Below, one piece after another: positions 1,580 to 8,789 of a stretch of 30,415 nucleotides of DNA. Under the pieces are notes generated by a model. That model saw only the letters and a program-made list of their open reading frames with translations. It made no database searches and was not told where the DNA came from. Within the stretch, counting starts at the first letter, position 1. The number at the start of each line of letters is the position of its first letter. Source of the stretch: Chromera velia (Eukaryota > Sar > Chromeraceae); NCBI GenBank assembly GCA_018398765.1, contig JAHBMJ010003088.1, positions 55,003 through 85,417 of the forward strand, read 5' to 3'. A program made the translations under genes and the position numbers.

Positions 1580-2537
1580 ATGTCTGACCCCAACCCGTCT
1601 GTTCGTGTGGGTCTAGGTGTGGGTGGGGCCAAAAGACACCGCAAAGTGCTCCGAGACAACATCGAGGGCATCCTCAAACAGCCCTCCCTGAGCCGCTTCG
1701 TGCGAGAAGTCATGCAAGACAAAAAGTGTGACATGCGCGCACAGTCAGCCTACATGACCAAAATGCAGAAGCTCTGCAGGCAGGTTACAGCAGCAGTGTG
1801 TGACCGGGTGGTGGATGCCTCCCTTGCCCACATGGAGCACAGGAGGGATATGACCCTGAAGGAAAAGGATTTCGACAACGCGGTCAAGGGACTGGCGTTG
1901 GAAGTCCCAGAGACAGACTTTGAGGAAAATGGGAGCTACTGGAAGCCTAAGGGGGAATTCAAAATTCTGTACGAGAGAACCGGCGACTCGGTGCGCGTCA
2001 TTCGAGAGCGCAGGTCTGTTCAATTGTGCTTAGCACATCAAAGCTTGCCCGTCTCCTCCTTTTTTCGTCCAGTTTACTTCATTCATGCTTGCCCCTCGGT
2101 TGTTTTTCTTCCAGTCCGTATGTTTGCTTCTCTTTGTCTGTGCAGGCGTGACTTCCATCCGGCCGACATCTCACTATCATGAGTGCGTCCTGTCAGACAG
2201 GTTGCATGCAACAGAGATATGATCCCTGCCTGTCTTCCCCCGTGCCTGCAGGTCTGTTGCAGAGAGCTCCGGCGGCATGAGGCTGGACCCGAACGGCTAT
2301 GAGTCGGGAATGGACAGAGATGACGATGACGAGATGGCCTCGCCCTACGAGCCCCCGGAAGAGCGCAGGAAGAGGAAGAGGGGGGAGGACCAGTACGAGG
2401 AGTCTGAGGACGACGACGAAGATGAAATTGCGGATAAAGATGAGGACGAGGATGAAGAAGACGGAGAGGAGGAGGAGGAGGAGGAGGAGGAGGAAGAGGA
2501 GGAGGGCTCTGAGGAAGCTGCAGAGGATGTGGATTGA
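1580..2537 (+). CDS. Divergent histone H4-like protein with long acidic C-terminal tail
   Basis: Two exons, 1580-2013 and 2252-2537 (phase-2 intron), give 239 residues. Residues 11-28 (GLGVGGAKRHRKVLRDNI) match canonical H4 residues 9-26 with one difference, H4 K12 being Val here. H4 K16 and K20 are kept; K5, K8 and R3 are absent. Residues about 34-107 fit a stretched histone fold: a divergent alpha1, a long alpha2 with 'VVDASLAHMEH' matching H4 'VIRDAVTYTEH', and an alpha3 'KDFDNAVKGL'. After the fold come a linker, a basic patch (RRKRKR) and about 50 residues of nearly pure Asp/Glu. Canonical H4 is 102-103 residues with no C-terminal tail. Family knowledge: H4 pairs with H3, and its K16-K20 basic patch contacts the H2A/H2B acidic patch. 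Inference: a specialised nucleosomal variant or an H4-derived chaperone-like protein. The start is fixed by an in-frame TGA at 1568. Confidence 0.8.
2014..2251 (+). other. Intron of the H4-like gene, flanked by an 11-bp direct repeat
   Basis: The donor reads CAG|GTCTGTT and the acceptor TGCAG|GTCTGTT. The identical 11-mer GCAGGTCTGTT lies at 2010-2020 and 2248-2258, across both splice junctions. Excision in phase 2 joins the histone-fold exon to the acidic-tail exon without a stop. Confidence 0.75.
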
Positions 2538-3662: not shown

Positions 3663-5262
3663 TCATTGTAAAGTGCAGCAGCAAGTCGCTGGTGCAGCTC
3701 CTTGAACATTTGCACCCATTTTGGGGGGGGCGCTTACCGAGAGTGACAGCTTATTTTCGGCCTTCTCGGCATCAGTAACCCCCCCCTGCCTGCCGAGGTC
3801 TGCCACCTCTGCCCCATCCATTTCATCATCACCCTCAATGTCGTCCACTACCTCAAAAACCTCCTCATCATTTACCTCCACCTCCGGCAAACAGGGCTCG
3901 CCCTCCTCATCTGCCCCGTACAGGCGGGGAGCAGAGTAGGTCAGCATCACATCGAGTCGGAAGTCCAGGAGGGCATCTGCCTTCCCCTCGCTCTTGTCCT
4001 TTTTTGTCCTCTCCGGCGTCTTCCCATACGCCGACGTGGACATCACAAAATTTCCTGAACGGGTGGCAAAGACTGCATCGGCTATGTCACCCAGCAACTC
4101 TGCACGTGCCCCTGCCTCCTTTGCACTCGCAATATCTTGCTTCAGCAAGATACCCACAATTTCTGCTCTGTGGGGTTTCAGATCAAATGGTACGCCCCCG
4201 TCCGAAAGAGAGAAAAGGAGTGTGCGGACCACCAGGCCGCCCGCTTCCCCATCTCGCTCATGGAGACGGAGACCCTCCAAACACCCCACAGACTCCACGG
4301 GCACTTCCCACTTGATGGGACCAAACTCTTCGCAATCAGCCACAACCCCTGGATCGTCTTGCGATTGCATCGCATGCAGCGGAATCAACGTACGGGTTGG
4401 ACCGCCCCGGCCGCTGGAGGTGTCGGAAGCTTTGAGCCCCGGCATGGAGCATTCGCACACATACATTGTGTTGAAATTCGCGTGGAAGTCCTCAAAGCTC
4501 ATCCAAAACGCCCCATTGACTTTTTTCTCAAACCCCAGAGCCCTCGCAATCTGCGGGTGCTCTTCCCATTTCCGACTCGAATCCCCCCATGCCCCCTTCC
4601 ATTCTGTCCGTCCGTGGGGATTGCGGAGGCACAAAAGCAGGTGATTGTGGCCTGAGTATGTCTGAATGATCGAGTACGCATGGGTAGTAATGAGACCATT
4701 GTCTAGGAGCTGCTCCCTCTCCGTCGTGGCCGTGCCTGTTGAGGCAGCCATGAGGTAATGAAGCCTGTCCATTTCCTTAATCTTTTCAAAGAACTCTTTT
4801 CCGTTGAACTTTACTTTCGGCGTCCTCCACTTGGATGTGGAGTGCCATTGTTCAGACAATTTCACGTCCTCCCACACATAATCAATCAGCACCCAGTCAT
4901 TCGACTTGGGAGGATATCGAATGAAACTCTCAAGAACCGGCTCCCCCGACACTGCCTGCCAAGCAAAACTCGGGATCCCACCATCGAGAGTAGCATACCC
5001 CCCGGCCATTTTGGCAAATGCCTTTTCGAGGAGCATCATCCAGCACTCCGATCTCTTCGGCTTGACGTACATCGGGCGTGCCCCCGCCCCGCTCTTTCTC
5101 CACCACTGGTCTGTCTTGCTGCCCCAGCAAGGGATGAAGGAATCAATCGTCACACTCACCCACTTCTTCCTCTCTCTGTTCCACAGCCTGATGGGAACCT
5201 TCCCGTCATCCGGGATCTCTGAGATACCGAACAACTTTCGGATCTGCACACACACACAGACG

Positions 5263-5322
<60 letters not shown>

Positions 5323-6207
5323 CAAAGAAGGGAGGGGGGGATGAAGAAAGAAACAGAAACGCAGACATGGAGAGAGAAATGCATACGAATTGACACTTAA
5401 TTATTGCCTTGCTCGCTCTTTTGTCCTACTTTTCGTTTGCCTCTGTGTCCGCAGCATCTCATTTTGAGACGCAGATTGCCCTGCACGACCACTGAAACTG
5501 TGCAGATTGGTCGAGTTTGCTTGAGGGTACGAAGTGATGACGAAAGAAACAAATATCTCGCAGTCAAGAGGAGGGACTCCATACAGAGCCGAACTGCATG
5601 ACAAAGCTTTTGTCTCCAAACTAAGATTCGTTCTGAGATGATGTCTCAGCCTCTCCCTCTCCCTCTCCCATTCCCTTCTGCCACTGACCTGTTGGGGGTA
5701 CTCGGCCGCTGAAGAGATTGCCGTAATGAGCCAGCAATCCCCAATTGACCCCTGCAGCATGTCACAGGGGTCAATCTGATCAAACAGAGGCGCATCGTCC
5801 ATCAGTTCCATCACAGGCACCCACACGCCGTTGTCCCCCGCTCCCAGACTCTCCTTTGAGTGAGGAAAGTCAGGGTCTACCCATAGAGAGCTCCGGTCGG
5901 GTTTCTCGGCATTCGGCTCGTAGACTTCGCTCTGATCATCCCACGCAGCTGTCCATGGGGTGGACCCCTTCGCCTGCTTGTAGAAGGCCCCGTTAGGAAG
6001 ACAGAGTTTCCAAACGCCATTCAGACGTTTGATGAAGAGCTTATGAGGACTGGAGGAGATGGGGGCATAGACTGGGAATTCTTCTGAGAGTTCGGACGTT
6101 TTCTCTGTACAGACACGCAGATGCTGCTGTGAGGTGTACCAGAAGGCAAGGTAGCGGGGCCACTGGTCGATGGGAGGAATAGGGCCCCCCAGTTGCTCCA
6201 GCCGTTT
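3663..6207 (-). CDS. Calpain-family cysteine protease module (probably the C-terminal part of a TPR-calpain fusion)
   Basis: Exons are 6207-5689 and 5243-3663, joined in phase 0 over an intron with donor GTCAGT and acceptor TGCAG. The first exon carries calpain landmarks: 'WVDPDFPHSKESLG', then 'GSIGDCWLITAIS' with the catalytic Cys codon at 5736-5734. The second has 'LLEKAFAKMAGGYATLDGG', the catalytic His in 'THAYSII' (4682-4680) and Asn in 'LRNPHG' (4622-4620). The Cys-His-Asn triad is complete; the residue after Asn-Pro is His where calpains usually have Trp. About 250 further residues follow, with a C2-like/domain III position and an acidic end. The N-terminus is open: acceptors at 6207 or 6240 are both phase 0 and match the phase-0 donor ending the upstream TPR exon. 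If the genes are separate, an ATG at 6219 or 6267 would start this one. A GTAAGC donor near the 3' end makes the last residues uncertain; splicing there could move the stop to 3650. Confidence 0.85.
5244..5688 (-). other. Calpain intron with compound microsatellite
   Basis: On the minus strand the intron begins GTCAGT and ends in a (TC)n(TG)n tract running straight into TGCAG. The tract is therefore the polypyrimidine region of this acceptor. It keeps YPQQ|IRKLFG in phase 0. Confidence 0.8.
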
Positions 6208-6537
6208 CTGCATTTGCATTTGATTGATTGATACGTTCAGCTGTGGGTGAATCTCTTTTTCGTTCATTCATTGATTGGAGAATCATCCATCCATCCATCC
6301 ATCCATCCAGCCAGCCCTATGATGGCTGATCGAATTCAGCCGTTGCTTTGTCATTGTTTCTCTGCATCTCTAATGCATAATGCGTCCCTTCATGCATGCA
6401 GTCCCTTCTTTCCTTTCTTCGTCTCTCCATTTTGCTGGTGAATGCGTCCTCAGATGGACTTGAATTCAAAACAAACTCCACAGAGTCAAGTCAAGTCACC
6501 TTGACAAAGGTTGGCTTAGAAAAGGGGTAAGAAATTC

Positions 6538-7253: not shown

Positions 7254-8789
7254 NNNNNNNNNNNNNNNNNNNNNNNNNNNNNNNNNNNNNNNNNNNNNNN
7301 NNNNNNNNNNNNNNNNNNNNNNNNNNNNNNNNNNNNNNNNNNNNNNNNNNNNNNNNNNNNNNNNNNNNNNNNNNNNNNNNNNNNNNNNNNNNNNNNNNNN
7401 NNNNNNNNNNNNNNNNNNNNNNNNNNNNNNNNNNNNNNNNNNNNNNNNNNNNNNNNNNNNNNNNNNNNNNNNNNNNNNNNNNNNNNNNNNNNNNNNNNNN
7501 NNNNNNNNNNNNNNNNNNNNNNNNNNNNNNNNNNNNNNNNNNNNNNNNNNNNNNNNNNNNNNNNNNNNNNNNNNNNNNNNNNNNNNNNNNNNNNAGGGGG
7601 AGGTTGTTTTCGCTCTTCTTTCTTCTCCTCTTTTGTCTCTTCTTCCTTCTTTGGTTGAGGCGGTGCGGGGCGTTTCTGTTCCTTTTCCTTTTGGTGGTCT
7701 GTGTCTGTTTCCTTTTGGGGAGCCGTTTTTCTGTCCTTTTTGGGTGACGGTTTTTTTCTGTCTGGATCCTTTTTGTTCATTTCCACGACTTTCTTGAAGG
7801 CAATTCTACCCCGTCTAGAGAGAAACTGAACCCTCTTGTGGTCCGAGGGATAATGGCGTGTGACAATCGGGTAGGCAGACTGGAAACAGGCCAGGGCCTC
7901 GTCCCACTCCTTCTGTTGGACTAAAATCATTCCCTCAATGACCATTCCCTCGGCACCGTAAAGGGTCGGGGTCCCCCGGTTTGTGCCGAGCTCCTGACAT
8001 TGCTCGGCATACTTCAGTGCCTCGTCCATCTCCCCCATGCAACACTTTGTGCAGGCGAGCTGCAGAGCACAACGGGCTTAGACAACGGGCTCTTTGTCTC
8101 TTCGACCCTACTGCGTTGGCCAGATTGATCGCCTGCTCGTGGTCGGCATTTGCACGCGCAAACATCCGTGCCTTCCTCAGCGCTGCTCCCCTCTCCAGAT
8201 AATGATAGATCAGGGAAGGGGAGTTTGTTTCCTTCAAATTATATTTGATTTGGATTCCCTTGTTGAAGGCTTGCACTGCCTCCTCCGGTTCCCCCTGTTC
8301 TTCCGAGAGTGTCGTGCCGAGCATCAAGTAAATGGCGGAGAGCACACCGGCGTGCTGTGGGTTTGACTCCTTGAGTTGAGGGATCAGCGATTGGAGTACG
8401 GATACGGCTGCTTTGGGGTTCTCTTTATCGCACTTCTCGGCGACGTTGAGGAGTTTCTGTACATGAGGGGGGATGCCTGCGGACATGCCGAAGACATCCT
8501 TCAGACAGTCTGGTATCTGAAACTCAGGATTCTTGTCTTGTTCTTCCATGACTGTCATTCTGATAATGCAGTGCTCAAGCGAGCGTCTGTCCTGGTCAGT
8601 CATAGAGGAGAGGGAGTTCTCCATCCACCTGTAGTAGGAGATTCGTTCCTCGTGTGTCGCAGACTGAGCATTGAAAGCCTGCATCTTTCCGCCCTTCTTC
8701 AGAAACGTCTCTAGGGCACTCAAGTCGATCTCCAGCTCCTCCTCGAGATCAGGCACGATCTCAGCCGTCCATTTGGTCACGTCACGCAT
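6754..8789 (-). CDS. TPR-repeat protein module, probably N-terminal part of a TPR-calpain fusion (interrupted by the assembly gap)
   Basis: The ATG at 8789 has an in-frame TAA upstream. Exon 8789-8112 (226 residues) is followed by a 52-nt intron (8111-8060, GTAGGG...TGCAG) and an exon from 8059 running into the gap at 7595. After the gap an exon from about 6894, possibly further upstream, runs to 6754 and ends at a GTAGGT donor. Helix pairs of tetratricopeptide type recur: 'LIYHYLERGAALRKARMF', 'MGEMDEALKYAEQC', 'EWDEALACFQSAY', 'LLEENGKHDEAVKHMKKL'. A Lys/Glu/Pro-rich linker precedes the gap. TPR superhelices bind partner proteins. The last exon ends in phase 0 after 'HPETQKIK', and the next in-phase acceptor gives 'KRLEQLGG', the start of the calpain module. 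Without that splice the frame stops three codons later, at 6742. The gap hides an unknown amount of coding sequence. Confidence 0.7.
7207..7253. repeat. (CA)n(GA)n microsatellite at the gap edge
   Basis: The CA run passes into a GA run that goes straight into the N stretch. The gap was probably caused by this repeat. It lies in non-coding DNA of the TPR module. Confidence 0.9.
7254..7594. other. Assembly gap (341 N)
   Basis: Run of N. Any reading frame spanning it is an artefact. The right flank is TPR-module coding sequence (Pro/Lys/Glu-rich) and the left flank is intronic microsatellite, so at least one exon end lies inside. Confidence 1.

Follow-up and report, generated by a model that had tools for sequence, protein, structure and literature searches.

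The window analysed here, a stretch of 30,415 nucleotides from Chromera velia, carries a predicted gene (positions 1580-2537, forward strand) whose product combines the likeness of two core histones in one chain. The predicted mosaic histone gene is a real observation, supported by its sequence. The mosaic similarity is strong for the tail and for residues 34-62, and tentative for the third part that follows them. In the reading that we favour, and whose chance of being right we put at about even, the product would be a mosaic histone-fold protein, composed of an H4 tail, an H3-type helix 1 and loop 1, a weakly H4-like second half and an acidic tail.

The gene was modelled by a reading-frame and splice-site scan; it contains two predicted exons and encodes a product of 239 residues (Table 1). 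The start ATG at position 1580 is preceded by an upstream stop in the same frame (TGA at 1568), and the frame opened by this ATG stays open up to position 2182 in the ORF scan. The intron borders are CAG/GTCTGT and TGCAG/GTCTGT, and the 3′ end of the intron is pyrimidine-rich; the splice pair was chosen for its CAG/GT donor and TGCAG acceptor. Because many alternative splice pairs also preserve the open frame, the intron is a prediction. Its retention would lead to a 200-residue protein that lacks the acidic tail. An 11-bp direct repeat, GCAGGTCTGTT, borders the intron on both sides and resembles a target-site duplication. Despite this flanking repeat, a repeat-derived intron was rejected, since the intron sequence had a single match in the genome, itself, in a search that skipped simple repeats. 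Two further observations were made in the same window. A gene on the reverse strand (3663-6267), judged by eye to encode a calpain-like protease (QGSIGDCWLI), adjoins the histone gene; a run of N is located at 7254-7594, with CA/GA repeats on one flank.

Table 1. Features of the predicted mosaic histone gene, in window coordinates
Feature	Position	Strand	Remarks
Exon 1	1580..2013	+	ATG to predicted donor; residues 1-144 and two bases of codon 145
Histone H4 tail, residues 11-33, GLGVGGAKRHRKVLRDNIEGILK	1610..1678	+	K16 and K20 equivalents are residues 18 and 22
H3-type helix 1, loop 1 and start of helix 2, residues 34-62	1679..1765	+	From profile and alignment
Rest of helix 2, loop 2 and helix 3, residues 67-104	1778..1891	+	Weakly H4-like, tentative
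Linker without match, residues 105-144	1892..2013	+	Strands in low-confidence models
Predicted intron, 238 nt	2014..2251	+	GT-AG; GCAGGTCTGTT at both ends
Exon 2 with stop codon	2252..2537	+	TGA 2535-2537
Acidic tail, residues 160-239	2295..2534	+	Asp and Glu encoded by all four codons; run of Glu close to the end
RRKRKR basic cluster, residues 183-188	2364..2381	+	From sequence

The tail region is of H4 type. In a search of residues 1-35 against the sequences of solved structures, the best E-value was 1.2e-8, and 59 of the best 60 of 87 matches were named H4; the remaining one was a fluorescent fusion chain. With profiles built from the histones of this genome, residues 1-33 score 32.2 bits against H4, a value equalled by none of 1000 shuffles, and -1.5 bits against H3; the H3 tail and the αN helix are missing. 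The first-pass annotation had described an H4-derived tail that keeps K16 and K20 and has lost the K5, K8 and K12 acetylation sites, and both parts of this description hold. The equivalents of H4 K16, R17, H18, R19, K20, R23, D24 and N25 are kept. The three acetylation sites are all replaced in the predicted protein, by Ser, Val and Val, respectively, in an ungapped extension; Val at the K12 position was also obtained in the codon alignment.

At the residue level, the tail is identical to the canonical H4 gene L005 at 19 of 22 positions, and at 11 of these 19 a different, synonymous codon is used. The same figures were obtained for the other canonical H4 gene, L006, and the H4 variant L008 shares 16 of the 22 residues, with 11 synonymous codon differences. 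Between L005 and L006 themselves, 46 synonymous differences are seen in 103 codons. Residue identity combined with synonymous codon divergence indicates an H4-type tail that is old and constrained, one that split from canonical H4 long ago and was kept by selection.

The region that follows the tail is like H3. The junction sits at the Pro that opens helix 1 in both histones (P32 in H4, P66 in H3 and P35 here). With the profiles of this genome, residues 34-62 score 14.3 bits against H3 (0 of 1000 shuffles) and 1.0 bits against H4 (46 of 1000), whereas the H2A, H2B and divergent H3 (L013) profiles all score below zero. Searched alone against the sequences of solved structures, residues 33-127 matched H3 in all of the best 60 of 146 hits, with a best E-value of 0.0024. 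The segment RFVREVMQDKKCDMRAQS aligns without gaps to RLVREIAQDFKTDLRFQS, positions 69-86 of human H3, with 11 of 18 residues identical, and in pairwise comparisons with three H3 sequences, only 1, 0 and 0 of 2000 shuffles reached the observed scores. Among the identical residues are H3 R69, R72, K79, R83, Q85 and S86 (residues 39, 42, 49, 53, 55 and 56 here), which we take to be DNA-contact positions. With the genome's H3 loci L010, L011 and L012, the H3 part has 11 or 12 residues in common, and the codons of 6 of them differ synonymously. On account of the synonymous differences in both parts, we rejected an assembly chimera, as well as a recent gene conversion in which the H3 and H4 genes of this genome were the donors.

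A centromeric H3 was also considered. Centromeric H3 proteins have a longer loop 1 and a Trp where helix 2 starts. This candidate was rejected, since loop 1 is ungapped relative to H3 and residues 34-62 contain no Trp; a profile that includes a piece of human CENP-A, entered by hand, scores -0.5 bits.

Profile scores in 30-residue windows changed along the chain from H4 (33.7 bits at residues 11-40) to H3 (15.3 bits at 36-65) and to H4 again (6.8 bits at 66-95). The main profiles were built from the histone genes of this genome only; a wider panel, partly entered by hand, gave the same order (H4 32.8; H3 16.2 versus H4 0.9; H4 8.5 versus H3 1.9), and so did pairwise shuffles. With this genome's profiles, residues 63-110 score 8.6 bits against H4 (1 of 1000 shuffles), 2.7 bits against H2B (31 of 1000) and 0.0 bits against H3 (280 of 1000). 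Part of this second-half signal may be common to histone folds generally. For residues 34-110 the H2B profile reached 8.8 bits in the wider panel, where H4 reached 8.5 bits, but 4.5 bits with the profiles of this genome. On their own, residues 63-144 matched no solved-structure sequence at E up to 10, and residues 105-144 matched no histone profile. When the tail was included in the search, 59 of the best 60 of 236 matches were named H4, and some of the gapped H4 alignments reach residue 97. The first-pass annotation had seen a diverged H4 fold behind the tail, and had named a similarity confined to the short tail as the case against it. For the fold, that case is largely what we found: residues 34-62 are of H3 type, and what stands of the earlier view is the weak lean of residues 63-110 towards H4.

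The second half could also be of H3 origin. The protein would then be a two-part chimera, in which an H4 tail precedes an entire fold of H3 type that has drifted in its second half, and it would serve as an H3 substitute pairing with canonical H4. The pairwise alignment with human H3 spans, with gaps, residues 39 to 101, and H3 H113 and D123 have equivalents in H87 and D97. In support of this reading, residues 34-110 taken jointly favour H3 (17.6 versus 8.5 bits for H4, with this genome's profiles); the scores of residues 63-110 alone, nil for H3 and in favour of H4, go against it, and we consider it unlikely, though a serious competitor.

In addition to the profile scores, the geometry of the fold was compared with that of H3 and H4. 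From the loop-1 Arg (R53, H3 R83) to the loop-2 Thr (T92, H3 T118 and H4 T80) there are 39 positions, compared to 35 in the canonical histones, which indicates that helix 2 would be longer by about one turn; a four-residue gap is located at helix 2 in all seven H3 and H4 rows of the alignment. Neither the C-terminal TLYGFGG of H4 nor the C-terminal RRIRGERA of H3 is present in the 239-residue translation. In the register of the pairwise alignment, the positions of H4 Y72 and Y88, which presumably contact H2B, are occupied by His and Asn. These two replacements and the two absent C-termini suggest that the predicted protein would be placed outside the standard octamer.

The missing H4 C-terminus, the His and Asn at the two presumed H2B contacts and the H3-like helix 1 and loop 1 all weigh against the proposal of the first-pass annotation, a specialised variant that would take the place of H4 in some nucleosomes. 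That proposal agrees with the old constraint on a tail with K16, K20 and the basic patch and with the weak H4 match in residues 63-110, and we regard it as improbable on balance. Divergent, often elongated H4 variants, which would also speak for it, are reported from Perkinsus and Amoebophrya in the excerpted text of PMC4751559.

Structure prediction was performed with AlphaFold2. The model obtained without an alignment (pLDDT 47, pTM 0.37) contains helices at residues 36-47, 52-87 and 95-102, and the model obtained with nine sequences (pLDDT 55, pTM 0.24) at residues 35-49, 52-88 and 95-105. The order of a short, a long and a short helix, which is that of a histone fold, is seen in both of these low-confidence models. 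A Foldseek search with the alignment-free model gave 27 weak matches, with no histone among them. For the nine-sequence model, Foldseek gave 803 matches at E up to 10, none at or below 0.001 and the best at 0.11; the best 50 of them are mostly nucleosome or histone-complex entries, which are not independent evidence because the alignment rows behind this model were histones (H3 and H4). The Pfam Histone family scores 18.9 to 21.4 bits, below its cut-off of 26.4, with 18.9 bits for the whole 239 residues. Six other families were matched in the scan of the whole protein, all below their cut-offs, and were taken as chance or composition. As for the number of folds, the sequence suffices for one histone fold and does not match the two-fold architecture of histone doublets.

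A long acidic C-terminus, also described in the first-pass annotation, is confirmed: the last 80 residues are acidic, and the net charge is -41 over residues 146-239, compared to +7 over residues 1-145. Asp and Glu are encoded in residues 146-239 by GAG (25), GAC (10), GAT (8) and GAA (7); owing to this usage of all four codons, the acidic end beyond the Glu run is not a pure codon repeat. The basic cluster RRKRKR within the acidic tail resembles a nuclear-localisation signal.

The genome searched consists of 4040 contigs with a total of 177.8 Mb. Six places in it matched residues 1-144 at E up to 10: the gene itself, the canonical H4 genes L005 and L006, a 68-nt copy (L007), the H4 variant L008 and, weakly, the H3 locus L009. 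The search with the Histone family found 17 places, with one divergent and three canonical H3 genes among them; in this search the mosaic gene scored 21.1 bits, below the cut-off. The number of canonical H4 genes, which the first-pass annotation had suggested counting, is thus two, with one H4 variant elsewhere in the genome. Since canonical H4 genes are present, the mosaic gene would be an addition and not a replacement.

Several of the other loci are of interest in their own right. L008 (positions 1489-1782, contig C3751) is a second H4 variant of ordinary length, with a shortened tail and K20 changed to Arg. The divergent H3 L013 (positions 1489-1803, contig C1557) carries a Trp where H3 has F84 and has no loop-1 insertion; our guess is that it may be a centromeric H3. 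L014 and L020 (contigs C1899 and C821) are H3-like, contain in-frame stops (one TAG and two TAA) and look like decayed relatives of L013. An H2A match falls within a 1795-codon frame that stems from a run of N.

The copy at L007 (positions 1499-1566, contig C1187) is isolated; it corresponds to positions 1626-1693 of the window, the part with the H4 tail and the junction, and is 94% identical. Its recurrence on another contig indicates that such fragments move, and it could suggest that the mosaic is a non-expressed gene or a recent pseudogene, derived from recombination between histone genes. We consider this very unlikely. The frame is open, and synonymous differences are seen at 11 of the 19 tail codons shared with L005, at 6 of the 11 or 12 residues shared with L010, L011 and L012 in the H3 part, and at two of the four positions where the 68-nt copy differs, the other two being in one Pro/Ala codon. 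Hardly credible is a last alternative, in which the H3 likeness of residues 34-62 arose by convergence within a drifting H4 fold: the signal is carried by only 29 residues, but the 11 of 18 ungapped identities to human H3, the shuffles that almost never reach the scores of the three H3 sequences or, in 1000 trials, that of the genome profile, and the failure of H2A, H2B and L013 to match all go against it.

To place the predicted protein among known proteins, we searched a database of UniRef, nr and EukProt records, in which a match needs shared five-residue words. Three of 90 candidates matched at E up to 1, all of them H4-bearing proteins; with residues 34-144, none of 11 candidates matched at E up to 10. 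At the sensitivity of this five-residue-word search, no orthologue was found in these records. The gene's own protein is not among the matches, so the database may lack entries from this species. Viral contigs searched with the mosaic protein and with the genome's H4 and H3 gave no confirmed locus. A metagenomic protein, P0002, appears by eye to contain the end of an H2A, then H4, then H3, like viral histone repeats; its end resembles adapter read-through. Among the matches listed in the open-access literature, as far as their excerpts extend, we noticed neither a mosaic H3/H4 histone nor an acidic-tailed H4.

Residues 11-33 are almost unchanged from canonical H4, with K16, the basic patch, K20, R23, D24 and N25 all kept. 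Different from canonical H4, the predicted protein has lost K8 and K12, its helix 1 and loop 1 are not of H4 type, its helix 2 is longer, it lacks TLYGFGG, and it extends to 239 residues with an acidic tail. With canonical H3 it shares helix 1, loop 1 and the start of helix 2, including the presumed DNA-contact residues, whereas the H3 tail, αN and RRIRGERA are absent and the second half alone is not recognisable as H3. Acidic histone chaperones and HMG-box proteins have a long Asp/Glu C-terminus after a basic part. The acidic end resembles them in this arrangement, the likeness here being one of acidic composition alone; unlike them, the predicted protein yielded only sub-threshold matches when all 239 residues were scanned against Pfam, with no NAP, nucleoplasmin or HMG-box family among them. 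The "histone-chaperone hybrid" of the first-pass annotation is a possible description.

Other natural histones are similar in part. Like the viral H4-H3 doublets and histone repeats, the predicted protein has H4 and H3 material in one chain, with H4 first; the viral doublets form two folds, whereas a single mosaic fold is predicted here (excerpted text of PMC11222145). The hybrid H2A variants of flowering plants also merge features of two histone types, but these are the C-terminal motifs of two H2A classes and not parts of two core histones (excerpted text of PMC8208582). The Perkinsus and Amoebophrya variants are, like the predicted protein, elongated H4-related proteins that occur beside ordinary H4; compared by description, they are absent from our protein-search matches, and the excerpted text of PMC4751559 names no H3 segments or acidic tails in them.

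Taken together, the constraint on the tail, the retained H3 contact residues and the lost octamer-facing ends argue for a histone-fold chromatin protein with a job of its own. In the mosaic that we favour, the H4 tail would give way, where helix 1 begins, to a helix 1 and loop 1 of H3 type. Behind these would come a second half that has diverged strongly and resembles H4 weakly, with a helix 2 that exceeds that of H3 or H4 by about four residues. Such a protein would be nuclear and bound to chromatin, and it would dimerise through its fold without replacing H3 or H4 in the ordinary octamer; H4, H3 or the mosaic protein itself are candidate partners. The H3-type loop would touch DNA, and the H4 tail, with K16, K20 and the basic patch, would be available to neighbouring nucleosomes or to enzymes that act on H4 tails. 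The acidic tail may be a chaperone-like arm, masking the basic parts until DNA or H2A-H2B is met.

In the H3-H4 handshake, the DNA site at each end is made up of two loops, loop 1 from one histone and loop 2 from the other. A self-complementary mosaic could be imagined on this basis, a homodimer in which both ends would carry DNA sites made of an H3 loop 1 and an H4 loop 2; we give this version a small chance. The lengthened helix 2 of one subunit would be matched in length by that of the other, a better fit than with a canonical partner. If this were true, the protein would be a re-evolved archaeal-like histone in a eukaryote, homodimeric, with an H4 tail on each subunit and with its loading controlled by an acidic arm.

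The sequences of H3 and H4 hardly change, and the two are known as separate partners. A swap between the H3 and H4 folds at a structurally matching position would show which parts of the H3-H4 pair can be exchanged, and one chain would unite the basic patch of H4 with the K79 region of H3. Chromera is related to the dinoflagellates, whose histones are described as unusually divergent in the excerpted text of PMC4751559, and the predicted gene would provide it with a histone-fold protein that has an acidic arm.
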